From a virus, in IMG/VR virus record IMGVR_UViG_3300034012_002862, positions 1-29,204 of that record: a stretch of 29,204 nt of DNA. One strand, given 5' to 3'. The notes below the pieces were generated by a model. The model did not search any database. It was not told the DNA's origin and was given only the letters and a program-made list of their open reading frames with translations. This document shows, in pieces, positions 1 through 29,204 of this stretch (the first letter of the stretch is position 1; every line of letters begins with the position of its first letter). Both the position numbers and the translations under genes were made by a program.

Positions 1-61
1 GTCCCGTAAACGGGCGGGGGAGTTTTTCGGTTTTGGTGGGAACGAAGGAACAGGAGGGAGA

Positions 62-1180
62 ATGAACAGGCTCGTAACATCGGAGTCGGTCACGGGCGGA
101 CACCCGGATAAACTCTGCGACCAGATCAGCGACGGCGTGCTCGACGCGATCCTTGCCCAAGACAGGGACGCCAGGGTCGCCGTTGAAGCCGCGGCCAAAG
201 ACGGGACCATCTGGGTCTTCGGAGAGACCGCCACGCGCGCCACGATTGACGTCCGCGCCGTCGTTCAAGAAGTGCTCCGGACGAACGGCTACACGGACCC
301 GAGCGCAGGGATCACGGCGGACACGGTCGGCGTTCAAGTTTCCATCTCGCGCCAGTCGCCAGACATCGCCCTCGGCGTTGACGCCCAGGACCACCTCACG
401 GCTGGAGCAGGGGACCAGGGACTGATGATCGGATACGCCACACGCGAAGCCGCGGGCTTGATGCCGCTCCCGCTTTACCTCGCACGCGAACTCACAGACG
501 CGCTGCGCTACTACAGGGAGCAGGGACGATACGCCTGGCTGCGGCCAGACGGGAAAGCCCAAGTCACGGTCCGCTACATCAATGGGGAACCGGAGGAAGT
601 CACGAGCGTCGTCATCTCGGCGCAACACACGGCGGACGTTTCGCTCGCGGAAGTCAGGGAGACCTTGCGCGCGATCGCGGAGCGCGTCATCCCAGAGCAC
701 CTGCTCACGGAAGACACCGCCTACCACCTCAACCCCACCGGGCGATTCGTGATCGGCGGACCGATCGGGGACGCGGGACTCACGGGGCGGAAGATTATCG
801 TTGACACCTACGGCGGCGCAACCCGCCACGGCGGGGGCGCCTTCAGCGGGAAGGACCCGTCCAAAGTCGACCGCACGGGAGCATACGCGGCGCGCTGGAT
901 TGCCAAGAGCATCGTGGAGTCGGGCCACGCGAAGCGCGCGGAAGTTGAACTCGCCTACGCGATAGGGGTCGCGCAACCGGTCGCGCTCGCCGTTGAGACC
1001 TTCGGCAAAGCGAAGGATCGGGAACTTGAAAAGCACATCGCTGCTACGATTGATCTGCGACCAGGCGCGATCATTGAGCGGCTCGGATTGAAGAGCGTGA
1101 AATATCAACCCTGCGCCAGAGGGGGGCACTTCGGAAGGATTGACCTCGACCTCCCGTGGGAACAGCCCGTCAAGATTTAG
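62..1180 (+). CDS. metK: S-adenosylmethionine synthetase
   Basis: This enzyme makes S-adenosylmethionine (SAM), the universal methyl donor, from ATP and methionine in the cytoplasm. The 372-residue protein aligns in my reading over the whole length of bacterial MetK (E. coli about 384 aa). The N-terminal GHPDK motif holds the catalytic His14. GAGDQGLM lies near residue 120, and the C-terminal half carries NPTGRFVIGGP, GLTGRKIIVDTYGG and GGGAFSGKDPSKVDR. No key motif is broken, so I expect it to be active. One variant is TGGHPDK in place of the more common SEGHPDK. An AGGAGGGAG ribosome site precedes the ATG. The stop is 8 bases from a DNA methyltransferase, the obvious consumer of its product. 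Identification is very firm; that it is a phage metabolic gene rests on the surrounding phage genes. Confidence 0.97.
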   Translation: MNRLVTSESVTGGHPDKLCDQISDGVLDAILAQDRDARVAVEAAAKDGTIWVFGETATRATIDVRAVVQEVLRTNGYTDPSAGITADTVGVQVSISRQSPDIALGVDAQDHLTAGAGDQGLMIGYATREAAGLMPLPLYLARELTDALRYYREQGRYAWLRPDGKAQVTVRYINGEPEEVTSVVISAQHTADVSLAEVRETLRAIAERVIPEHLLTEDTAYHLNPTGRFVIGGPIGDAGLTGRKIIVDTYGGATRHGGGAFSGKDPSKVDRTGAYAARWIAKSIVESGHAKRAEVELAYAIGVAQPVALAVETFGKAKDRELEKHIAATIDLRPGAIIERLGLKSVKYQPCARGGHFGRIDLDLPWEQPVKI

Positions 1181-1188
1181 GGGGAACG

Positions 1189-2604
1189 ATGTCAAAAGTC
1201 GAATGGCGCAACAGGATCACACGGAGCGGAGAGATCGCCCCAGAGGGGCTCGTCCCGAATCCAGAGAATTACAGGGAGCACCCGGATAAGCAACAGCGCC
1301 TGATGAACGGCGCCCTCAACGAACTCGGATGGGTTCAGCCAGTCATCGTCAACGAACAGACGGGACGCCTCATCGACGGCCATATGCGCGTCGCGCTGGC
1401 GATGCGCAGGGGCGAAGCGACGGTCCCCGTCAACTTCGTAGACCTCAGCCCAGAGGAAGAGAAACTCGCCCTCGCCACGCTTGACCCGCTCGGGGAACTT
1501 GCCCGCCAGAGCGACGATGACCTCCGCGCGCTCCTTGCGCAGTTGACCGTCAACGATGCGGACCTCAAGGAACTCCTCGTCTCGCTAGACCAGGAAGCGG
1601 GGGGAGACCAGGACAATAGCGCGGAGAGCAGGGAAGCGGGAATGGCGAGCGACCGGGTCGATGCGCTCCGAGAAAAGTGGGGAGTTCGCACGGGCGACAT
1701 TTGGCAAGTCGGCAGCCACAGGATCGGATGCCTTGACGCAACGAATCCGAAAGCGATCGCCGCCTTGATGGGCGGAAAGAAAGCGCACCTCGTCTTCACG
1801 GACCCTCCATACGGCGTCGCCTACAAGAGTGAGGGCCACGCGGAGATCAAAAACGACGCGCTCACCGGCGACGAACTGATGGACTTCCTGCTCAAGAGTT
1901 TCAGGAATATGGAAGAGCACGCCTACGACGATGCGGCGTTCTACATTTGGCACGCCTCTGCAAGCCGGGACGCCTTCACAGAGGCGATGAAGCGAGCAGG
2001 CTTGATGGAAAAGCAGTACCTCATCTGGGCGAAGCCACAGCCCACGCTCGGACACGCGGACTATCAACAGGCGCACGAACCGTGCTTCTACGCTTCCAAA
2101 GCGATCCACCAGCCGCGCTGGTTCGGGGCACGAGACAAAAACACAGTGTGGGTTATTGCGCAGGCGGACGCGGAGCGGGCCGCCGCCGTGCTCACAGGCG
2201 GGCTGTTGATCAGCGCAGGGGACCGCCGCCTCTGGGTCAGCGACAAAGCGCCAAAGGGTAAAAAGATGCGCACCTTCCGAATCGATAAGGGGGAGCGCTT
2301 GGAACTAAACGAGCCTGGAGCAGAGGGCGACGTCTGGATCGTCGGACGGGATACAACTAAGCCCTTCCACCCCACACAGAAGCCGGTCGAACTTCCAGCC
2401 CGCGGCATCCGCAATAGCAGCGAACCGGGCAACATCGTGCTGGACCTCTTCCTCGGAAGCGGCTCCACCGCGGTCGCAGCGGAGCGCACCGGCCGCACTT
2501 GCTACGGCACGGACTACAACGAAGGATACGTCGCCGTCGTCCTCGAGCGCCTCAGCGAAGAGGGACTCAAGCCAGAGAGAGTCGAATCCTTCCAGGGCTC
2601 ATAA
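1189..2604 (+). CDS. ParB-like domain / DNA N6-adenine or N4-cytosine methyltransferase fusion
   Basis: This protein (471 aa) transfers methyl groups from SAM to adenine or cytosine amino groups in DNA. Residues about 10-110 form a ParB/sulfiredoxin-type domain (GRLIDGHMRVALAMRRGEA). The methylase follows, with catalytic DPPY at 205-208 and the SAM-binding DLFLGSGST at 419-427. That order, catalytic motif first, is the beta class. HPTQKPVELP precedes the SAM motif. About 50 residues between the two motifs (roughly 325-375, with GGLLISAGDRRLWVSDK) look like an insertion and may help target recognition. I use the ATG at 1189, which follows GGGGAACG and the metK stop, rather than an upstream in-frame ATG at 1156 inside metK. 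ParB-methylase fusions are familiar beside phage terminases. No restriction endonuclease partner is seen, so it probably protects or marks phage DNA. The target site is unknown. Confidence 0.93.
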   Translation: MSKVEWRNRITRSGEIAPEGLVPNPENYREHPDKQQRLMNGALNELGWVQPVIVNEQTGRLIDGHMRVALAMRRGEATVPVNFVDLSPEEEKLALATLDPLGELARQSDDDLRALLAQLTVNDADLKELLVSLDQEAGGDQDNSAESREAGMASDRVDALREKWGVRTGDIWQVGSHRIGCLDATNPKAIAALMGGKKAHLVFTDPPYGVAYKSEGHAEIKNDALTGDELMDFLLKSFRNMEEHAYDDAAFYIWHASASRDAFTEAMKRAGLMEKQYLIWAKPQPTLGHADYQQAHEPCFYASKAIHQPRWFGARDKNTVWVIAQADAERAAAVLTGGLLISAGDRRLWVSDKAPKGKKMRTFRIDKGERLELNEPGAEGDVWIVGRDTTKPFHPTQKPVELPARGIRNSSEPGNIVLDLFLGSGSTAVAAERTGRTCYGTDYNEGYVAVVLERLSEEGLKPERVESFQGS

Positions 2605-3090
2605 GTGGGAACACGGGGACCGGCGCCAAAGCCCACACGCCTGAAAGTCCTCGCAGGAGAGACCCGCCCGTCGGTGATCAACTACGCGGAACCGATCCCA
2701 GCGGGAGGACCGCTGACACCCCCAGAAGACTTGCGGCCAGAAGTGCGGACCATCTGGGAGCGCGTGGTTGAAGCGCTCGGGCCCACGGGCGTGCTGACTT
2801 CAGCGGACAGGGACCTGCTCCGGCTATACGCGGAAGCGCTGGCGCGATACATTGAAGCGGAACAAATGCTCGCCAAGTCGGGACCGTTGATCCGAGGGAG
2901 GGACGGGAACCTGGTGAAAAATCCGCTGCACCAAATCGTCAGGGATAACGGCGACGCGGTCAAAAAGTACGCGCGCGAACTCGGACTCACGCCCGCTGCT
3001 AGAGTTGGACTGAGAGGAGAAATCGATGGGAACGCGAACTCGGCAACGGCGAAACTCGACGCAATCATCCAAGCCGCGCGCAGGGCATAA
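2605..3090 (+). CDS. terS: Terminase small subunit, P27 family
   Basis: This 161-residue protein should recognise phage DNA and hand it to the large terminase for packaging. The start GTRGPAPKPTRLKVLAGE, a LRPEVRTIWERVVEAL segment, a helical middle with DRDLLRLYAEALARYIEAEQML, and an NPLHQIVRDNGDAVKKYARELGLTPAAR tail are typical of the P27 terminase small subunit family. The GTG start directly abuts the methyltransferase TAA with no intergenic base, so translation is probably coupled. The 3' end overlaps the large terminase gene by 65 bases. Family assignment is by recognition of sequence and position. Confidence 0.9.
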   Translation: MGTRGPAPKPTRLKVLAGETRPSVINYAEPIPAGGPLTPPEDLRPEVRTIWERVVEALGPTGVLTSADRDLLRLYAEALARYIEAEQMLAKSGPLIRGRDGNLVKNPLHQIVRDNGDAVKKYARELGLTPAARVGLRGEIDGNANSATAKLDAIIQAARRA

Positions 3091-4537
3091 GGGCGAAGGG
3101 GCGGTCGTCGCTGACTTCATTGAATCGTTCTGCAGGCTTTCACGAGGGGACGAAGCGGGGCAGTTGATCAAACTCCGCCCGTGGCAGCGGGAAATCCTAG
3201 AGGAACTCTTCAGGCACCGCGAAGACGGGAAGCGAAAGTACAGGCGCGGCCTGCTCTTGATGCCGCGAAAAAATGGGAAGTCCCTCCTTGCCGCGGGCAT
3301 CGCCCTCTATTCGCTTTTCACAGAAGTCGGTGCGGAAGTCGCCATCGTCGCAGGAGACCGCGCGCAGGCGCGCATCATCTTCAGGGAGTGCGCGCGAATG
3401 GTTGAACTAGACCCGATCCTTAGCAGGAAACTCCACGTGCTCAGGGACGTCATCGAGTACCCCGAGACCGGCAGCGTGCTGCGCGTTTTGTCTTCGGAAG
3501 CCACACGCGCGGAGGGCTACAACTTCAGCACCGTCCTATTTGACGAAATCCACGTCCAGCCCGATGACCGCCTCTGGTCCACCGTCAACCTCGGGAGCGG
3601 CGCGCGAAAGAATCCGCTCGTGCTCGGCATCTCCACAGCGGGCACGAAGACGGACACGCGCGGCCAGGACTCGCTCTGCTACCGCCTCTGGCAATACGGG
3701 AAGCGGCTCGAGAGCGGAGAGTTGGAAGATGACGCCTTCTACTTCCGCTCCTTTACCGCGCCAGATAATCTCGCGTGGGATTCGCCGGAAGCAGCGAAGA
3801 CAGCGAATCCAGCCTACGGGGACTTCCTAGACCCAGAAGACTTCACCGCCGCCGCGCGATCAATCCCGCGCCACGAGTACGAGACAAAGCGCCTATGCCG
3901 CTGGGTTTACTCGGCGGACCCTTACCTTCCAGCGGGAACGTGGGACGCCTGCGAAGCGGAGGGGCTGGAACTCAAGCCAGAGGAACCGATCACGCTCGGC
4001 TTTGACGGCTCCTACGCCGGGGACTCAACGGCCATCGTCGCGTGCAGAATCAGCGATAAGGCGCTCTTCGTTCTCGGCCACTGGGAAAGGGCGATCGACG
4101 GGGACCTTGCGTGGCGCGTTCCGATTGAGGAAGTCGAAGCCCGAATGCTGCAAATCTGCAAAGAGCACGCGGTGCGCGAAATCGTCTGCGACCCGTTCCG
4201 GTGGCAGCGATCAATGGAAGCCTGGGCGCAAGTCGGACTGCCCGTCGTTGAGTTCCCACAGACGCCCGCCAGAATGGTCCCCGCAACGGCGGGCTTCTAT
4301 GATGCGGTCGTCAATAAACAACTCACACACACAGGGGACCCGAGACTCGCCAGGCACGCAGCGAACGCAACGCCCCACTATTCCAGGGGCGGACTAATGG
4401 TCAAAAAGGAAAGCAAAAATAGCCTCAAGCGAATCGACCTCTTGGTCGCTGGGATAATGGCGCACTCGCGCGCTGCTACACTTGGAACCACACCGGGGCC
4501 GCAGCCGAAAGCGGAAGTCAAATGGATCGAATTGTAA
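3026..4537 (+). CDS. terL: Terminase large subunit (packaging ATPase/nuclease)
   Basis: This 503-residue motor pumps DNA into proheads and cuts the concatemer. The N-terminal ATPase carries a Walker A-like MPRKNGKS at 79-86 and Walker B VLFDEIH with D173/E174. The C-terminal RNase H-like nuclease has acidic residues at D327 (GFDGSYAGDST), D389 (VCDPFRW) and D471 (RIDLLVAGIMA), the expected three-metal-ligand pattern. Length and order fit HK97-type terminases. The ATG has an upstream GAGAGGAG. The gene starts inside the small-subunit gene, which suggests coupled synthesis. The DNA-end mechanism (cos or headful) cannot be decided from this sequence. Confidence 0.96.
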   Translation: MGTRTRQRRNSTQSSKPRAGHKGEGAVVADFIESFCRLSRGDEAGQLIKLRPWQREILEELFRHREDGKRKYRRGLLLMPRKNGKSLLAAGIALYSLFTEVGAEVAIVAGDRAQARIIFRECARMVELDPILSRKLHVLRDVIEYPETGSVLRVLSSEATRAEGYNFSTVLFDEIHVQPDDRLWSTVNLGSGARKNPLVLGISTAGTKTDTRGQDSLCYRLWQYGKRLESGELEDDAFYFRSFTAPDNLAWDSPEAAKTANPAYGDFLDPEDFTAAARSIPRHEYETKRLCRWVYSADPYLPAGTWDACEAEGLELKPEEPITLGFDGSYAGDSTAIVACRISDKALFVLGHWERAIDGDLAWRVPIEEVEARMLQICKEHAVREIVCDPFRWQRSMEAWAQVGLPVVEFPQTPARMVPATAGFYDAVVNKQLTHTGDPRLARHAANATPHYSRGGLMVKKESKNSLKRIDLLVAGIMAHSRAATLGTTPGPQPKAEVKWIEL

Positions 4538-4546
4538 GGGAGAACC

Positions 4547-5737
4547 GTGGGACTACTTGACCGCCTGCTCGGACGAACGGAACCACAGGAAGAGCGAACG
4601 ATCGGCGGCCAGTGGTGGTCGCCCGATCCGAACTACGCGGGAGTGCGAGTCACGGAGGAAAACGCTACCAGCATCGGCGCAGTTTACGCCGCCGTAAAAC
4701 TCTACGCGGACACCGTCGCATCGCTTCCGTGGGACACCTACATCCGCATCGATGGAACACGCCGCCCCTACCGCCCGCGCCCATCTTGGATGGATGCACC
4801 GATTCCGAATAACCCGAACTTCACGTCGTTCGAATTCAAGCATCGCGTGACCACCAGCCTGCTCATCGATGGCAACGCGTTCATCCTGGCACTCCGGGAT
4901 AGCAGCGATAACGTCGTCGAGACCCGAGTGCTTGATCCAAAAAAGGTTGAGATCAAGACGGGATCAAACGGGGAACCGCTCTACCACGTCACCACACGCG
5001 AAGGGGGCGCAGTCCTCACCTCCGATGACATCGTCCACATCCCGCTCTTCGCAACAGGAGAGAACCATCGCGGGCTTTCGCCGGTTGAGCACCACGCGGT
5101 AACGCTCGGGCTCGCCAGCGCCACGCAAATCTTCAGCGCAAAGTTCTACCAGAATGGCACCACGCTCGGTGGCGTCGTCAAAGTTCCAGGCGAACTCACG
5201 CAGGAGCAGGCCGAAAGCCTGCGCTCAGGATTCAGCCGCCGCCACGAAGGAGTCGACAAAGCCTGGAAAGTTGCGGTGCTTACAGGCGGCGCGGATTACC
5301 AGCAACTCGGAATGAAGATCAGCGACCTGCAACTGGTCGAGACAATGCACTACGGGGTAGAAGCCATCGCGCGAATCTATGGCGTTCCGCTTCACTTGCT
5401 GCAGTACCCCGGAGGGAACACTTCCTACAGCAGCGTAGAAGTGATCAGCATCGAATGGCTGCGACTCGGACTCGGCCCGCTCATCTCGCGCCTTGAGGCC
5501 GCCTTCCAGCGACTCGTTCCAGGAAGCCAACAGACGTTCCTCAAGTTCACACTTGAAGGGCTGCTGCGCCCGACCACACAGGAGCGCTACAACGCGTACG
5601 CCACTGCGCTGAATAACGGATTCCTCTCTGTCAACGAAGTCAGAGCGCTGGAAGATCGGTCGCCGGTTGACGGCGGCGAAGACTACTGGAAGCCGCTCAA
5701 CATCGGCACGCTTGGCGCAGGAGACCCGCCCGCGTGA
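4547..5737 (+). CDS. Portal protein, HK97 family
   Basis: The 396-residue portal forms the dodecameric ring at the head vertex through which DNA enters and leaves and to which the connector binds. Recognisable parts are the N-terminal GLLDRLLGR, the NATSIGAVYAAVKLYADTVA helix, LLIDGNAFILALRD, a central TSDDIVHIPLFATGENHRGLSP and the C-terminal GVPLHLLQYPGGNTSYSSVE region, all usual for HK97-type portals. It starts with GTG after GGGAGAACC and lies between the large terminase and the protease as expected. Its last codon overlaps the next gene's GTG as GTGA, so the protease fusion is probably made by re-initiation. Confidence 0.94.
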   Translation: MGLLDRLLGRTEPQEERTIGGQWWSPDPNYAGVRVTEENATSIGAVYAAVKLYADTVASLPWDTYIRIDGTRRPYRPRPSWMDAPIPNNPNFTSFEFKHRVTTSLLIDGNAFILALRDSSDNVVETRVLDPKKVEIKTGSNGEPLYHVTTREGGAVLTSDDIVHIPLFATGENHRGLSPVEHHAVTLGLASATQIFSAKFYQNGTTLGGVVKVPGELTQEQAESLRSGFSRRHEGVDKAWKVAVLTGGADYQQLGMKISDLQLVETMHYGVEAIARIYGVPLHLLQYPGGNTSYSSVEVISIEWLRLGLGPLISRLEAAFQRLVPGSQQTFLKFTLEGLLRPTTQERYNAYATALNNGFLSVNEVRALEDRSPVDGGEDYWKPLNIGTLGAGDPPA

Positions 5738-7236
5738 GTTACATCATCACAGACATCGATGGAACGCTGACCACCAGCGGGGACACGCCCAATCAGCCGT
5801 TCATTGACTGGCTCAAGAGTCAGGCAAACGATCACGGCGCGGAAGTGATTATCGTCAGCGCCCGGAGCATTGAGCGACAGGCGGAGACAGAGCGGTGGCT
5901 TAACGAAAACTCAATCCCATACGAGGAAATCTACCTGCAGGACTTCGGGGACGTGAACCCCGCCACGAGCGAAGCCTTCAAAGCCTACAAGTACAGCAAA
6001 CTCCAGGAAGAGTACGGGGACGAAATCGAAATGCTGGTCGATAACGATGCGGAAGCCAGGGACGCAGCGGAGGGAATGGGCATCCCAGCCTATACGCCAG
6101 AGCAGGCCATCGCGCTGACAATTGACGATGAGAGCGATGACGAAATGCGGGTCCTCATTGACGCGCCCGATTACGTCCAGGCCGCTGCAGCGAAGGGGAT
6201 CACCTACTACGAGCAGGGGCTCGCCGGCGACGGACTCCAGCCAGAGACCGTGGAGGAAGCGCGCCAATTGCGAGCAGGGCGAGTGCAGGATGAGAAAGTC
6301 ACACGCCTGCGCGCTTGGATTCTTCGGCACCGCGGAGACTGGGAAGGAGTCGCGCGCAACAGCGACGCGAACGATCCAGACTTTCCAGGACCGGGCGCAG
6401 TTGCGGCATACCTGTGGGGCGTTGATCCCACGAACGAAAACGGGACGGAGCGCGTCCTAGAATGGGCGGACAGAGCGCTCGCTCCGCTTGAAAGCGAAGA
6501 CAGGGAGACCATCGACGTGAAAGAAATCGAGACCCGCGCCTTGCCACTCGGGGACTTCGCCGTCACGGAATCGGAAGACGGCCAGAAGACGTTCACCGGA
6601 TACGCCGCCCTTTTCGGCTCGCCAAGCGCAGGGCTGCCGTTCACAGAAGTCATCGCCCCCGGCGCCTTCAAGCGAACGCTTAGCCGCGTCGCAGGCGGGA
6701 AGAAAATCGTCTCGTTCCTTTTCGGGCACGATGAGACCCGCGCCCTTGCGACCACGCTCAGCGGGCGGCTTGCCCTCAGCGAAGATGATCGCGGGCTCCG
6801 AGTAGAAGCGAAACTAGACCCCGCCGATCCAGACGCCGCGGGAGTGATTAGTAAACTCACCCACGAAGCCGCGGCGATGTCTATGTCTTTCGGCTTCACG
6901 ATTCCAAAAAACGGAGACCAGTGGGACGAAGACGTCCGCACCCTGCGCGAAGTCAACCTCTTTGAAGTCAGCGTGCTAAGCGCGGGCCAGACGCCTGCCT
7001 ATCCTTCCACTCTCGGCTTGACCTCGGTCCGGAAGATCGCGCCACGGATGGGCGTTGACGCGGACCGCCTTATCTCAGCAATCGAGTCCATCAAGTCAGC
7101 GACCCCGCTGACTGAAGCGGACGTCGAAGTGCTCGACACCGTCCGAGAGAGGCTCGGGCCAAAGCCGGAAGCGATCGATCCAACGATCGCAGCCGCCAGG
7201 CTCGTGCTTGCGAAGATGGAGTCGGAAGCGCTCTAA
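5734..7236 (+). CDS. HAD-like phosphatase domain fused to HK97-type prohead protease
   Basis: This 500-residue protein appears to have three parts. Residues 1-125 look like a haloacid dehalogenase-type domain: TDIDGTL at 6-12 with candidate nucleophile D7 and general acid D9, a SARS segment near 42, and VDNDAEARDAAE near 107. Residues about 136-250 form a helical module ending in DFPGPGAVAAYLWGVDP, resembling a domain I associate with phage head proteases. Residues about 262-440 match the HK97 prohead protease (TFTGYAALFGSP, GHDETRAL with H332, MSMSFGFTIP with S383/S385). The protease should cleave scaffold or capsid delta domains in the prohead. The HAD role is unknown; nucleotide or nucleic-acid end phosphatase activity is a guess. 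The start overlaps the portal stop (GTGA). Confidence 0.88.
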   Translation: MSYIITDIDGTLTTSGDTPNQPFIDWLKSQANDHGAEVIIVSARSIERQAETERWLNENSIPYEEIYLQDFGDVNPATSEAFKAYKYSKLQEEYGDEIEMLVDNDAEARDAAEGMGIPAYTPEQAIALTIDDESDDEMRVLIDAPDYVQAAAAKGITYYEQGLAGDGLQPETVEEARQLRAGRVQDEKVTRLRAWILRHRGDWEGVARNSDANDPDFPGPGAVAAYLWGVDPTNENGTERVLEWADRALAPLESEDRETIDVKEIETRALPLGDFAVTESEDGQKTFTGYAALFGSPSAGLPFTEVIAPGAFKRTLSRVAGGKKIVSFLFGHDETRALATTLSGRLALSEDDRGLRVEAKLDPADPDAAGVISKLTHEAAAMSMSFGFTIPKNGDQWDEDVRTLREVNLFEVSVLSAGQTPAYPSTLGLTSVRKIAPRMGVDADRLISAIESIKSATPLTEADVEVLDTVRERLGPKPEAIDPTIAAARLVLAKMESEAL

Positions 7237-24880: not shown

Positions 24881-25047
24881 CCTTTGAATTCATCGGGCTC
24901 TTGATCGCTGCCGCGCACTTGACGCTCGCCTTCCTGGTCGCTGCCACGCTGCCAGAAGCAAAGCGCAGGGGCACCGCGGCAGCGGGTACCATTTACATCG
25001 CGGTGGCAATCGCCACTGTCGTGTGGATTACCAGGAGCATCCAATGA
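24877..25047 (+). CDS. Small two-helix membrane protein
   Basis: A 56-residue protein with two hydrophobic helices, about 5-24 (FIGLLIAAAHLTLAFLVAAT) and 35-50 (AAAGTIYIAVAIATVVWI), separated by the polar loop LPEAKRRG. Starts with GTG (GTGA overlap), ends ATGA. Could be a small membrane factor such as a superinfection or antiholin-like protein; unrecognised. Confidence 0.55.
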   Translation: MTFEFIGLLIAAAHLTLAFLVAATLPEAKRRGTAAAGTIYIAVAIATVVWITRSIQ

Positions 25048-25337
25048 AAAGAATCGAACGCGCCGCGCCTTTCCTTGACGAACGGGTCGTCCTCGTTCAA
25101 GAGGGAGCGGACGCCTGGGCGGAGGAACCCGGCGCAACCGGACGCGTGTGGGCGAACTTGAGCATCCGATACACGGACGCGATCGCGCCAGAGGGCTGGT
25201 TCTTTCTCTACGAGAGCATCGGGAGCAGGAAGACGATTGCGGACTGCATCAAAAACGGAGCGCTTGAAATCGAGTCGGCGCGCTTCACCCTGAGCGACGG
25301 CGGAGGGGCCCTGCTCGCCAGAGTTGTGCCAGACTGA
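25044..25337 (+). CDS. Hypothetical protein
   Basis: A 97-residue α/β protein (RIERAAPFLDERVVLVQEGADAW, IRYTDAIAPEGWFFLYESIG, and IKNGALEIESARFTLSDGGGALLARVV). No family recognised. The ATG at 25044 (ATGA) is preferred to one at 25023 inside the membrane gene. Its stop shares one base with the next ATG (TGATG). Confidence 0.6.
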   Translation: MKRIERAAPFLDERVVLVQEGADAWAEEPGATGRVWANLSIRYTDAIAPEGWFFLYESIGSRKTIADCIKNGALEIESARFTLSDGGGALLARVVPD

Positions 25338-25705
25338 TGGGGAAGATGAAAGACGAAGCGATCAGGCTCGGCATTGACCCCGCGAAGAGCAGGCGCGGAA
25401 AAAACGCGCGCAACAGGGGCAACGCCTACGAGCGCGAAGTCGCAGCGCTGCTCAACGGCACACGAGTGGGCTGGGCAGGCGGCCCCACAGACGTCTCGAC
25501 CGGCGTCTACGACATCCAGTGCAAAGTCGGGGGTTCCTACCCCGAGCGGATCGACGGCTGGCTGCGAAAGGTTCCATTCCGCTACGAGAAACTCCGCGCC
25601 GTCGTGCTCGGGGACTCGCCAGGACCGGGAACGAAGCGACGAAGCCTGATCGCGTTTGACCTTGAAGAGTTCGCGGACTTCTTCGCGGAGACTCAGCCCG
25701 AATGA
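25337..25705 (+). CDS. PD-(D/E)XK nuclease, Holliday-junction resolvase-like
   Basis: A 122-residue protein. RNRGNAYEREVAALLNG is the first helix with the conserved Glu, GPTDVSTGVYDIQCKVGG gives D-(x)n-Q-C-K as the PD-(D/E)XK active-site strands (D near 62-70, Q-x-K near 73-75), and a final helix follows RSLIAFDLEEFADFF. This resembles small Holliday-junction resolvases and related phage nucleases, which would resolve branched DNA before packaging. The E-to-Q change in the E/QxK pair is seen in some families. Confidence 0.72.
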   Translation: MGKMKDEAIRLGIDPAKSRRGKNARNRGNAYEREVAALLNGTRVGWAGGPTDVSTGVYDIQCKVGGSYPERIDGWLRKVPFRYEKLRAVVLGDSPGPGTKRRSLIAFDLEEFADFFAETQPE

Positions 25706-26100
25706 TCGCCGCGCTGCTGGCCATCGCGCTCGCAGCGAACACAGGGGCTCCAGTGGTCACGGAACACGGCATCCCACAGCGGGGCGTCGCCTCTTGGTAC
25801 GACGCCACCCGCAACAACGCCTGGTACACCCGAGGGGGAACGCGCTACTACGCCGCCGTTGGCACCTTCCGCTGGGGCGACGATCCATACGCGATCAAGA
25901 TCTGCAGGAAGGATCAACCGCGCAAATGCGTGATCGCCACCGTCGTTGATTACTGCGGGCGCTGCGCTAGGGACCTCAAGCGCCCCTGGAATAAGCGCAG
26001 CCGGAACGTTGACCTTTCACCAGCCGCCTTTGCCGCGCTGCGGGGCTTGAACTTTGGCGTTGTCCAAGTCATACTTACGGAACTGACCACGGGGAAATAG
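25702..26100 (+). CDS. Secreted RlpA-like double-psi β-barrel protein
   Basis: A 132-residue protein with an N-terminal hydrophobic stretch (IAALLAIALAANTGAP) that looks like a signal peptide, then GVASWYDA, a conserved RlpA start, VGTFRWGDDPYAIKI, VVDYCGRCARDL and VDLSPAAFAALRGLNFGVVQV, the typical second half with DLSxxAF...L...G. RlpA relatives bind or cleave peptidoglycan. Four cysteines could form disulfides, fitting an exported protein. Its location among DNA metabolism genes is odd for a lysis protein; a role at the cell surface early in infection is possible. ATGA overlap with the nuclease. Confidence 0.78.
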   Translation: MIAALLAIALAANTGAPVVTEHGIPQRGVASWYDATRNNAWYTRGGTRYYAAVGTFRWGDDPYAIKICRKDQPRKCVIATVVDYCGRCARDLKRPWNKRSRNVDLSPAAFAALRGLNFGVVQVILTELTTGK

Positions 26101-26142
26101 TCAAGCGCACCGCGGGAATAACCCGCACCGGGGAGGGAACAC

Positions 26143-26769
26143 GTGCCAACACTGCGATCAATACGGGGCGGTTGGATGCGAGTCGTCGCAAAACAGGCCT
26201 TCCCGTTCAAGGGTCCACGCGGAAGGATTGAAGCGCTGGCGGACGCGCTCGAAATAAGCCGCCGCAGTTGCTACGCCTACGTCGGGGAAGAGCGCCGCGT
26301 GCCAGAGGAAATAGAGCAGCGCTTCATCGCGCTCTTCGGGCCGGTGGCAGAAGACGGCTGGCGGATGGTTGACGTGAAGCACACGCGGAGCAGGAAGCCA
26401 AAGCCACCAAAGGGGAAGCCAGGACAGACGAAGGAAATCGCCAAAGCCAGGAAAGACGGCTGGCGCTCCGCGGCGATCAACGCGAGCACCATCCTCGCCC
26501 AAGACGTCCTCGGGCACTTCATCCGGTGGGAGCAGAACCCGCTGACGATCGGGCAGTTGGCAATGCTGGAAGACGGCCTCGATGAGCAGGAAGCGCTCGC
26601 CAAGTACCCCAAGAATTACTACGCGCTGGCCGCGGACGAAGACTGGGTCGCCAAGTGCAGCATCTGCGACTTGATCGGAGCGGTTGATGACAGGGAAAAG
26701 GAAGTCAACGGGCTGCTCTTCCGAGTCACCTGCAAGACGGACTCCTACAAGATCAGGGAGGAAGGATGA
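26143..26769 (+). CDS. HTH- and zinc-ribbon-containing regulator-like protein
   Basis: A 208-residue protein that starts with GTG behind GGGGAGGGA. Residues about 28-70 (RIEALADALEISRRSCYAYVGEERRVPEEIEQRF) read as a Cro-type helix-turn-helix with a recognition helix around SRRSCYAYVG. A lysine/proline linker, a helical middle and a C-terminal CSIC...C part follow. It is the only candidate DNA-binding regulator of its size. Role not proven. The stop overlaps the next ATG (ATGA). Confidence 0.6.
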   Translation: MPTLRSIRGGWMRVVAKQAFPFKGPRGRIEALADALEISRRSCYAYVGEERRVPEEIEQRFIALFGPVAEDGWRMVDVKHTRSRKPKPPKGKPGQTKEIAKARKDGWRSAAINASTILAQDVLGHFIRWEQNPLTIGQLAMLEDGLDEQEALAKYPKNYYALAADEDWVAKCSICDLIGAVDDREKEVNGLLFRVTCKTDSYKIREEG

Positions 26770-27104
26770 GCGAGGGAGCGGTCTGCCTGCCCTGCCTCGC
26801 AATCCCGGTCTTCCGCCCGCTCGCCCTTTGCCTACAACACGGGCCAAAGCCAGAAAACAGGCGGAAGATTGTCCCAGGGGACGCCCACCTCACCCCTGAG
26901 CAGCGAAGGGAGCAGTCGATCCAAATGCGAAGGGAACGCAATAAGCGCTGCTACGAGCGCAACGCGGAGCGAAGGAAAGCCCAAATGCGCGAGCGCTACT
27001 GGCGCAACCGAGAAAGCGAAAAGATCAAGTGGGACGCCTACTACAGCCAGAACAAAGAGAGCCTCAACGCTAGGCGGAGAGCAGCCCGAGCAGCGAAGCG
27101 CTAG
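26766..27104 (+). CDS. Basic protein with N-terminal cysteine motif
   Basis: A 112-residue protein: VCLPCLAIPVFRPLALCLQHG at the N terminus has a C-x2-C...C-x2-H arrangement, possibly zinc-binding. The second half (RREQSIQMRRERNKRCYERN, ERRKAQMRERYWRNR, NARRRAARAAKR) is a long Arg/Glu-rich helix, likely nucleic-acid-binding. No family assigned. Confidence 0.6.
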   Translation: MSEGAVCLPCLAIPVFRPLALCLQHGPKPENRRKIVPGDAHLTPEQRREQSIQMRRERNKRCYERNAERRKAQMRERYWRNRESEKIKWDAYYSQNKESLNARRRAARAAKR

Positions 27105-27115
27105 AATCGCGGGAC

Positions 27116-27170
27116 GCCGCCCCCCATCCGGGCGGCCCAGCCTGCCGGCGGAGTCCTCCCGTCGGCAGGC
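27116..27170 (+). terminator. Tandem hairpins ending the early operon
   Basis: First hairpin: 7-bp stem 27116-27122 with 27130-27136, 7-base loop. Second: 10-bp stem with one G-T pair, 27140-27149 with 27161-27170, whose loop can add GGAG/CTCC pairing. They lie in the 90-base gap after the basic protein gene. No T-run is present, but two stems in series at a gene-block end fit termination or RNA processing. Confidence 0.65.
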
Positions 27171-27194
27171 GCCCAATACAGGGGAGGGGAATCA

Positions 27195-27599
27195 ATGCCG
27201 AAAGTCGATCGATGGGTTGCCGTTGAACGCTGGATCACAGACGCGCAGGAGACCCTCGGGATCACGCAGTGGCGCGTACGAGTGGTGCAAGACGCCGCGG
27301 ACATTGACGCCTGGGCGGACATTGACCCCCACACGCAGGCGACCACCGCGGACCTTCGCCTTTCGCACGACTTCTACCGCCAGGACCCTGAAAAGCAGCG
27401 GCTCATTTTGACGCACGAACTTCTGCACCTCATCACCTGCCGAACGGATAGAACCGTTGAGACGCTTGAGGAAGCGCTCGGCAAAGTCGCCTGGGCCGTC
27501 TACGAACCCCAATACACGGATGCAACAGAGCGAATGACGGAGCACCTCGCCACGATCATCGCCCCGTTCCTGCCCCTGCCAAAGTTGCCGCGCGCTTGA
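27195..27599 (+). CDS. HELLH zinc metalloprotease-like protein
   Basis: A 134-residue protein with the zinc motif H74-E75-L-L-H78 (LTHELLHLIT) after a β segment that includes ATTADLRLSHDFYRQD, and a C-terminal helical part with a candidate third ligand region. This is the layout of SprT/Wss1-like or gene-specific metallopeptidases of phages. It may process a phage or host protein. GGGGAGGGGA precedes its ATG; its stop overlaps the next TTG (TTGA). Confidence 0.75.
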   Translation: MPKVDRWVAVERWITDAQETLGITQWRVRVVQDAADIDAWADIDPHTQATTADLRLSHDFYRQDPEKQRLILTHELLHLITCRTDRTVETLEEALGKVAWAVYEPQYTDATERMTEHLATIIAPFLPLPKLPRA

Positions 27600-27910
27600 C
27601 CTTCCAGCGCCCCTGCCTTGATTGCGGAACCTTGAGCAGCGAAGGGGACCGCTGCGACGTGCACCGGAAAGCGGCACGAGCGCGATGGGAAGCCACACGC
27701 GGACCGTCGCCATACGCCGATCCAGCCTGGCGCAGGCTCAGCGCAACGCTGCGCAGGAAGCGCCCCTGGTGCGAACTTTGCGGCGCAACGCAGGACCTCA
27801 CGGTTGACCACCTCGATCCCGTCAGTAAGGGCGGCCCGCTGATTGCGCCAGAACATCGGCTGCGTGTAATATGCAGGCGCTGCCACGGAAGGAACACGCG
27901 GCACAAGTAG
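27596..27910 (+). CDS. HNH endonuclease
   Basis: A 104-residue protein: N-terminal CLDCG...CDVH, then CELCG, LTVDHLDPVSKGG and RVICRRCHGRN. The DH, the following D/N positions and the CxxC...CxxC zinc sites are the HNH nuclease pattern common in phages, where such enzymes often help terminase-based packaging. Here it is at the far end of the window from the terminase, which would be adjacent if the molecule were circular (only the glycosyltransferase, metK and methyltransferase between). TTG start in a TTGA overlap. Confidence 0.88.
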   Translation: MTFQRPCLDCGTLSSEGDRCDVHRKAARARWEATRGPSPYADPAWRRLSATLRRKRPWCELCGATQDLTVDHLDPVSKGGPLIAPEHRLRVICRRCHGRNTRHK

Positions 27911-27929
27911 GAGAAAGAGGGGGACACGG

Positions 27930-29174
27930 ATGGCTCGCATCGCCTGGTATTCCAACGCCTGCCATATCCCGAGTGGTTACGGTGCACAAAGTGCACAGGT
28001 CGTCCACCGGATGGTCAAAGACGGACACGAAGCCGCCATCGCAGCGAATCACGGCGCGCCAGTTCTTCTCAACTGCGCGCACGGGCATCCAATTCTTCCT
28101 GAAGGATTGCTGCGGTACAGCATCGACTCAGCGCCAGACGCGATGCAGGAGTGGATCGGAGACGGACCAGGATATGGCGTGGTCCTCTTTGATCTTTGGC
28201 CGCTCGTTGGCATTGAGGGATTCAAAAGACTCAACCTCGCCTGCTGGACCCCGGTGGATCACGCGCCGGCGCCCACCCTCGTCGCCAAGTTCATCCAAGA
28301 CGGAGAGCACGTGGCAATTGCGATGTCGCGCTTCGGTGAAGAGCAGTTGCGCAACGCAGGGATTCCAGAGGAGCGGCTCACCTACATCCCGCACGCTATC
28401 GACCGCAACACGTTCAAGGATCTCGGAAAGGGCCAGAAGACGGCGATGGGGATACCAGAAGACGCCTACCTTGTCGTTACCGTCGCAGCCAATCGCGGAC
28501 GCATTCCAGTGCGAAAGGGCTTCGGGGAAATGGCTGACGCAATGGCAGCGTTTATGAAAGACCGCCCAGACGTCTACTGGATGATCCACACGGAACCGAA
28601 CGGGCACAGCGAAGGGGTCAACATCCCACGCTTGATCAACGCGGTGGGAATTGATCCGCAACGAGTGCGCTACCCGCACCCGCGCCACTTCCGCAACGGC
28701 ATACCAGACACGGCACTCGCCGCAATGTATTCAAGCGCGAGCGCTCACCTACTCACATCGATGGGAGAGGGCTTCGGCATCCCGGTCGTTGAGGGCCAAG
28801 CCTGCGGCACGCCCGCAATCGTTTCAGACTTTAGCGCGCAACCGGAACTGCTCGGGCCGCACGGGAAGCGCGTGAAAGTCCAGCGCGTGTGGGACGAATA
28901 TCAGGCGTCCTTCTTTGGCATCCCGAACGTTGAGGGGATCAAGGCGGCGCTGCAGGAACTCTACGAGGAGACGAAGGGAGGGGGGGTAGACCGCGCGGCG
29001 GTCGCCAAGTCAATGGAGCGATACGACGCTGAGACCGTCTACCAGGAAGGATGGCGCCCACTCACGGAGCGGATGCTGGCACGAGGAAAGACACGAAGCC
29101 CAGGCACGAGGGAAGACACGCCTGCCCCAGTGAACAGAGCGGCACGCAGGGCTGCCGCACGGGGAGGGCGGTAG
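27930..29174 (+). CDS. GT4-family glycosyltransferase
   Basis: A 414-residue GT-B enzyme. The N-terminal fold begins ARIAWYSNACHIPSGYGAQS, with the acceptor side around residues 1-165; the C-terminal nucleotide-sugar site carries the GEGFGIPVVEGQACGTPAIVSD motif at about 285-306. RLTYIPHAIDRNTF is another usual element. It transfers sugars from an activated donor, for example to DNA bases, virion proteins or surface glycans; the acceptor is unknown. The end has a basic extension with NRAARRAAARGG, recalling short phage nucleic-acid-interacting tails. ATG follows AGGAGAAAGAGGGGG. Internal repeat GTGCACAAAGTGCAC at 27982-27996 encodes A-Q-S-A-Q. Confidence 0.9.
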   Translation: MARIAWYSNACHIPSGYGAQSAQVVHRMVKDGHEAAIAANHGAPVLLNCAHGHPILPEGLLRYSIDSAPDAMQEWIGDGPGYGVVLFDLWPLVGIEGFKRLNLACWTPVDHAPAPTLVAKFIQDGEHVAIAMSRFGEEQLRNAGIPEERLTYIPHAIDRNTFKDLGKGQKTAMGIPEDAYLVVTVAANRGRIPVRKGFGEMADAMAAFMKDRPDVYWMIHTEPNGHSEGVNIPRLINAVGIDPQRVRYPHPRHFRNGIPDTALAAMYSSASAHLLTSMGEGFGIPVVEGQACGTPAIVSDFSAQPELLGPHGKRVKVQRVWDEYQASFFGIPNVEGIKAALQELYEETKGGGVDRAAVAKSMERYDAETVYQEGWRPLTERMLARGKTRSPGTREDTPAPVNRAARRAAARGGR

Positions 29175-29204
29175 AAATCCTAAACGCACGAGGGGGGCGT
29201 CTAC

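Follow-up and report, generated by a model that had tools for sequence, protein, structure and literature searches.

A phage S-adenosylmethionine synthetase gene placed before a DNA methyltransferase may supply its cofactor

Why would a tailed phage with a genome of about 29 kb devote its first gene to a S-adenosylmethionine (SAM) synthetase? The stretch of viral DNA analyzed here, 29,204 bases long and referred to as the window throughout, raises this question: its metK gene lies directly before a DNA methyltransferase gene and ahead of the packaging genes. An earlier note on this DNA had reported that arrangement and proposed that the virus raises SAM to methylate its genome fully before packaging or to compete with host methylation. 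Our analysis confirms the observation and partly supports the interpretation; the two proposals about full methylation and competition are suggestions of that note. The reading that we favor, and to which we assign a probability of about two in three, is that the phage itself provides the SAM needed by the DNA methyltransferase that it encodes, an enzyme that would mark phage DNA against restriction.

The metK gene runs from an ATG at position 62 to a stop at 1180 on the plus strand, behind a leader (1 to 61) with an AGGAGG Shine-Dalgarno sequence at 52 to 57. Its product was described as a full-length SAM synthetase, and this holds: the 372-residue protein has intact GHPDK and GKDPSKVDR motifs, lies above cut-off for all three Pfam SAM-synthetase domains (PF00438, PF02772 and PF02773) and scores 473.7 bits over residues 5 to 371 against the NCBIfam equivalog TIGR01034, for which the cut-off is 309.4. 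Every column that is invariant across 22 MetKs (18 viral and 4 cellular) is kept, including H14, D16, K17, E42, E55, Q98, D118, D163, K165, D237, R243, K244, K264, K268 and D270, which we take to be conserved substrate-binding, metal-binding and catalytic residues. The gene is under purifying selection, as the earlier note had surmised, with a dN/dS of 0.064–0.200 against nine relatives (with high dS values for pairs that are further apart). Almost the entire MetK protein is covered by a match to phrog_1569, a PHROG family labeled unknown function.

Several observations show that metK is the phage's own gene and belongs to a phage-specific MetK lineage. In a rapidly built tree of 116 MetK sequences, sampled as every second cellular locus and every third of most metK loci from a wider search, with none of L143–L297, the window falls inside the starred set, with 14 viral rows. 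The closest cellular MetKs are 57–58% identical among the best 80 of 586 matches. On these two grounds we reject a recent acquisition from a host. An assembly join from a host contig, which the earlier note had named as a possible artifact, is excluded, because independent contigs share the gene order and three of them (L002, L004 and L005) run across the genome ends.

In those three contigs window base 29204 is followed by 10 nt, CCAGCGCCGA, and then by window base 1. The same 10 nt precede the shared start in L008, and the window, L003, L006 and L007 have a common first base directly after the 10-mer; the metK DNA of L006 and L007 is only ~70% and ~68% identical to that of the window, yet the contig start is identical. 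These common starts and 10-nt junctions establish fixed, cos-like genome ends and a genome of ~29 kb, as previously estimated, that is complete but for 10 nt. The 10 nt are absent from linear records and present in joined ones; a putative cohesive end whose overhang was trimmed or lost during sequencing would explain the missing bases. Assemblies do not display the physical ends as such. A 22-nt element, G-rich and then T-rich, occupies window positions 16 to 37. It begins at base 16 in L003, L006, L007 and L009 as well, and in 16 contigs that have a ParB-only gene before the terminase, 15 of them within a threshold of at most 6 mismatches in 22 and a better score than 50 shuffles; the consensus was drawn up after the contig starts were known. 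The recurrence of this element at base 16 points to one common physical end, and the element, whose distance from that end stays constant across divergent relatives, probably belongs to the packaging (cos) site.

The packaging and head genes follow the metK pair on the plus strand, as the earlier note had it: terminase small subunit (TerS, 2605 to 3090; PF05119, phrog_83), terminase large subunit (TerL, 3026 to 4537; PF03354, PF20441, phrog_9) and, by Pfam and PHROG matches, portal (from 4547), S78 prohead protease (5734–7236) and HK97-type capsid (from 7208). The protease reading frame may be a fusion, since its N-terminal 130 residues are similar to phage polynucleotide kinase/HAD proteins (phrog_415). 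At the right end (27596–29174) lie a small HNH nuclease gene (27596–27910) and, as the last gene, a plus-strand glycosyltransferase (27930 to 29174; PF00534, phrog_2170) that becomes the neighbor of metK once the ends join; in L380 an HNH-like reading frame likewise stands directly before the genome-end element. The statement that the genome lacks a polymerase is borne out among the 33 distinct reading frames scanned with at least one library, none of which matched a polymerase family; annotated-looking frames left unscanned are shorter than 150 residues. The position of metK at the genome end is, by itself, no sign of early or late expression.

The gene that follows metK is the ParB/methyltransferase fusion that had been reported, and the distance of 8 nt, with a GGGGG run inside, was given correctly. 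The 471-residue frame runs from an ATG at 1189 to a stop at 2604 on the plus strand (an alternative GTG start at 1156 would give 482 residues) and matches phrog_498 with an E-value of 2.7e-107. Its N-terminus is ParB-like according to phrog_620 (residues 19–129) and phrog_8071, and a Pfam scan of the fusion returned N6_N4_Mtase (PF01555; 103.2 bits, cut-off 26.7) and no ParB domain. The TDPPY motif at residues 204–208 precedes FLGSGST at 421–427; DPPY before an FxGxG SAM motif is the order of beta-class methyltransferases, and from the DPPY motif adenine-N6 is most likely the methylated base. The methyltransferase dN/dS is 0.024–0.106 against five relatives, with large dS in the more distant pairs, and comparison of the window with L006 gives identities of 39% for the methyltransferase, 72% for MetK and 84% for TerL. 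No restriction endonuclease lies beside the methyltransferase gene, whose neighbors are metK and TerS. The common strand, the short spacing and start-stop overlaps between metK and the methyltransferase gene in relatives (ATGA in L007–L010, GTGA in L006) suggest that the two genes are co-expressed.

What relatives carry at this position ties the two genes together more closely. We classed 79 terminase-anchored records by the genes before TerL: 76 from a TerL search, two (L379 and L380) that were reached through LuxS, and the window itself. A methyltransferase domain is present at the site in 17, of which 13 also have metK (only its last codons in L143 and only its C-terminal part in L199), two are cut inside the methyltransferase (L150 and L154) and two, L379 and L380, lack metK. 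These last two records are fragments of 11.9 and 5.9 kb that hold no metK anywhere, and in both the end element lies directly before the methyltransferase, with 4 and 6 mismatches respectively (no shuffle comparison). A gene with only the ParB part occupies the site in 44 of the 79; most of these genes match the fusion over residues 1–138 or so at 45–52% identity, that of L160 matches residues 4–249 at 35%, and none of the 44 has a DPPY-like motif. No metK was found upstream of TerS in any of the 44, and the result is decisive for 33 of them: in 28 the end element, by the threshold given above, stands just before ParB, and five more (L155, L156, L157, L165 and L210) have 1.2 kb or more of metK-free sequence upstream, the remaining 11 ending too near ParB to show it. 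A search of entire records for PF02772 gave no match in 50 further terminase relatives, beyond those already known to have metK; many of the 50 are fragments. These include 39 of the 44 ParB-only records, the other five being short contigs covered end to end, and nine of the 44 are longer than 25 kb; L199 is counted among the 50 because its record reaches only the end of its metK.

The final 18 of the 79 records matched neither ParB nor methyltransferase: in 14 nothing was recognized, 12 of these starting within 1 kb of TerL, and in four only a TET-associated glycosyltransferase (TAGT) was seen. A TAGT profile also matched in 11 of the 44 ParB-only records, four of which were tested against the family (PF20691), and TAGT is an alternative DNA-modification gene at the site where metK and the methyltransferase lie. 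It sits between the ParB-only gene and TerS, without metK, at L155:5857-6831, L160:880-1755, L170:671-1624 and L181:6688-7587. A search of 19 records for a TET dioxygenase (PF12851) gave no match, and neither did its control.

The site before TerS is a swap site that holds a ParB-only gene, ParB with TAGT, or a ParB-methyltransferase with differing add-ons, and at this site metK and the methyltransferase domain are mostly gained and lost together. The expectation that metK recurs beside the methyltransferase is borne out in 13 of the 17 records and fails in L379 and L380, which rule out a strict one-to-one coupling and leave a near-coupling. On the TerL tree each of the two traits needs four changes, and three independent pairs gave on average 2.3 concordant outcomes, 0 discordant outcomes and 0.7 with no difference between the members, which is not significant; the coupling is based on few independent changes. 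A plain swap site with so few changes is also what would be seen if metK and the methyltransferase half had come in as one recombination block at the genome end, with no functional dependence between them. We judge such hitchhiking decidedly improbable, since metK is under purifying selection, genes for SAH recycling join the pair in relatives, and the association recurs in other arrangements elsewhere among viruses.

These arrangements include a split architecture in the order ParB, methyltransferase, metK (L021), a metK between two D12-class DNA methyltransferases (L055, record positions 24981-27401) and C5 methyltransferases that adjoin metK (L354 and L355); the D12 and C5 profiles are home-made and narrow. 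A first metK search gave 51 unique loci, 39 of them with a DNA methyltransferase within 3 kb, and a wider one 66 among the matches listed, 25 of them with such a neighbor, in every case on the same strand. Methyltransferase midpoints per 100 kb around viral metK stand at 13.1 and 17.2 within 3 kb versus 3.5 and 0.9 at 3–6 kb, and their counts in 1.5-kb bands outward from metK are 42, 49, 9 and 2. When 50 records were searched over their whole length, 49 had a metK domain, and 35 of these 49 had a same-strand N6/N4 methyltransferase domain within 3.5 kb. The association of viral metK with methyltransferases is strong and local and is not obligatory: among the matches listed, no methyltransferase was detected within 3 kb in 41 of the 66 wider-search loci, and metK lies in the locus in only 15 of 80 ParB-methyltransferase-type loci. 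L024 has its metK 9 kb away from a methyltransferase that shares 69% identity with that of the window.

The 41 loci fit an account in which MetK is general metabolic cargo that lifts SAM for host-side processes favoring infection or the lysogen (AI-2, polyamines, methylations of other kinds, stress or Fe-S functions); the methyltransferase would then be its neighbor by chance. The literature places viral metK among auxiliary genes and proposes more than one role for it. Deletion of metK from the Streptococcus agalactiae prophage 12/111phiA altered aggregation and biofilm formation, with partial restoration by plasmid complementation (PMC8223999), and a Lake Baikal study interprets viral metK as related to Fe-S or stress functions (PMC9611531). 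A NifU N-terminal domain occurs in 3 of 60 scanned neighbors of metK loci that lack a methyltransferase. For the phages studied here we nevertheless regard this account as unlikely: metK appears at the site in none of the 44 ParB-only relatives, methyltransferases cluster tightly around viral metK, and metK and the methyltransferase gene have start-stop overlaps in L006–L010.

The bacterial activated methyl cycle consists of MetK, a methyltransferase, MTAN/LuxS or AhcY, and MetE/MetH. Parts of it accompany metK in relatives of the window. L006–L008, whose TerL is 83–84% identical to that of the window, have the order metK, ParB-methyltransferase, MetE-like, LuxS, TerS, TerL; L011 has metK, HNH, ParB-methyltransferase, MetE-like and LuxS alongside a very diverged terminase; and L379 and L380 combine the ParB-methyltransferase with MetE-like and LuxS. 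The four-gene cassette (L006:49-4410, L007, L008 and L011:2336-7012) is found in two groups of phages whose terminases differ greatly. LuxS of L006 matches PF02664 at 4.2e-43, the HxxEH, GCRT/GCQT and CG motifs are kept in L006–L008 and L011, and the NCBIfam scores of LuxS from L006–L008 are high, with none above the strict cut-offs. Among more distant phages, large contigs of 58–102 kb (L345, L363 and L388) have contiguous MTAN, LuxS and MetK genes, the GCRT/GCQT pattern being unmatched in LuxS of L345 and L363, and ahcY lies next to metK in six loci, of which two seem to have an identical metK sequence. Fifteen LuxS loci divide into seven with metK in the record, two that are cut and six without metK. 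No MTAN was found in the L006–L008 and L011 records, which are fragments. These phages thus share MetK, methyltransferase, LuxS and MetE-like (L006–L008, L011) or MTAN, LuxS and MetK (L345, L363, L388) with the bacterial cycle; the window, in which no profile for LuxS, MetE-like or AhcY matched, has the first two steps only, and no single phage here can be credited with every step.

The MetE-like proteins are of two types, between which thin profiles detected no relation; L007:2435-3457 and L006:2435-3490 occupy equivalent positions, after the methyltransferase gene and before LuxS, and encode proteins without detectable similarity in sequence. Those of L006, L379 and L380 are above cut-off for PF01717, and the best fold matches of the low-confidence L006 model (mean pLDDT 53.4) are B12-independent methionine synthases. 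The type found in L007, L008, L011 and L154 had no Pfam match at 0.001 or better; the L007 and L008 proteins had no NCBIfam match, and that of L007 no sequence match among solved structures. The L007 model, also of low confidence (mean pLDDT 60.2), best matches the fold of the methionine synthase/UROD superfamily, with Z 18.4 to 3rpd_B, up to 17.8 to UROD and at most 14.5 to the other barrels listed. That fold and an H.C...C pattern in L007, L008 and L011 are the grounds on which this type is tentatively called MetE-like; a common fold is no proof of function.

LuxS beside metK in several phages could also be read as a sign of signaling or counter-defense, with MetK offsetting a loss of SAM during infection or disturbing SAM-based signaling, and with the LuxS of relatives making AI-2. 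Type III CRISPR signaling through ATP-SAM conjugation has been reported (PMC10600005). We give this explanation very little weight, as metK of the window is flanked by the methyltransferase and, over the joined ends, the glycosyltransferase, and its recurring partner at the site in relatives is a DNA methyltransferase.

A metK gene beside or near a methyltransferase gene is already known from public phage genomes. In the Anaerosphaera phage IMGVR 8818211 (PV036460, Ca. Heliusvirales), as in the window, metK stands directly before a ParB-methyltransferase gene, here with a 4-nt overlap, and the terminase large subunit starts ~2 kb downstream; this phage differs in its 54-kb genome and in its MetK and methyltransferase, 48% and 32% identical to those of the window, and its metK is annotated only as a hypothetical protein. 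A metK gene near DNA methylation or restriction genes is also seen in Streptococcus prophages, namely the Javan set and 12/111phiA. In Javan424 an adenine methyltransferase lies ~1.5 kb downstream of metK, with a cytosine methyltransferase next; its MetK is 46% identical to that of the window and, unlike the window's, its metK does not occupy a genome end ahead of TerS in the stretch examined. According to PMC8223999, metK of 12/111phiA is found with an endonuclease in a module with a restriction-modification system, and the knockout work described there addressed host phenotypes and not phage methylation. By TerL comparison only, the annotated phages closest to the window are Pontimonas phage phiPsal1 (41.8%) and the Streptomyces phage phiC31 group (~40%). 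Helicobacter "prophage metK" matches were set aside as probable host flanks, the H. pylori prophage reportedly inserting beside host metK (PMC11321410), and unannotated "phage" metK records (the OR84 series, Listeria, Staphylococcus and Enterococcus) may be host fragments. Among the matches listed in searches of open-licence PMC text, none described an activated methyl cycle or a LuxS-MetK cassette of a phage.

The cofactor-supply reading rests on the coupling of metK and methyltransferase at the swap site, the clustering of methyltransferases near viral metK, the recycling genes of relatives and purifying selection on metK; it also accords with the pairing of SAM synthesis and SAM use that the earlier note had emphasized. 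Counting against it are L379 and L380, the few independent changes behind the coupling, the distant methyltransferase of L024, the 15 of 80 and 41 of 66 figures among the matches listed, and the window's lack of LuxS, MetE-like and AhcY matches. We envision a scenario in which MetK, by its predicted activity, converts methionine and ATP to SAM, which the ParB-methyltransferase fusion would spend on DNA methylation, most likely at adenine-N6 in phage DNA, so that methylated progeny could resist host restriction. In some relatives MetE-like and LuxS, together with a host SAH nucleosidase, may remove inhibitory SAH and rebuild methionine, and the LuxS/MTAN, AhcY and MetE-like genes of relatives more generally could clear SAH and regenerate methionine. 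Enzyme activity, methylation of phage DNA, its target and timing, and a benefit against restriction are predicted here from sequence.

A broader proposal, which we hold tentatively and at slightly less than even odds, is that small phages build modular activated-methyl-cycle cassettes at the swap site beside their packaging genes, which would both feed and detoxify DNA methylation. The window would then be the two-gene core, with variants made up of MetK, methyltransferase, MetE-like and LuxS and, elsewhere, MTAN-LuxS-MetK or MetK-AhcY. These findings suggest that viruses can carry parts of the methylation cycle. Natural variants with and without metK beside the same packaging genes tie metK mainly to the methyltransferase domain and lead to a testable account, in which the degree to which a phage protects its own DNA may be limited by the supply of cofactor and the removal of product.
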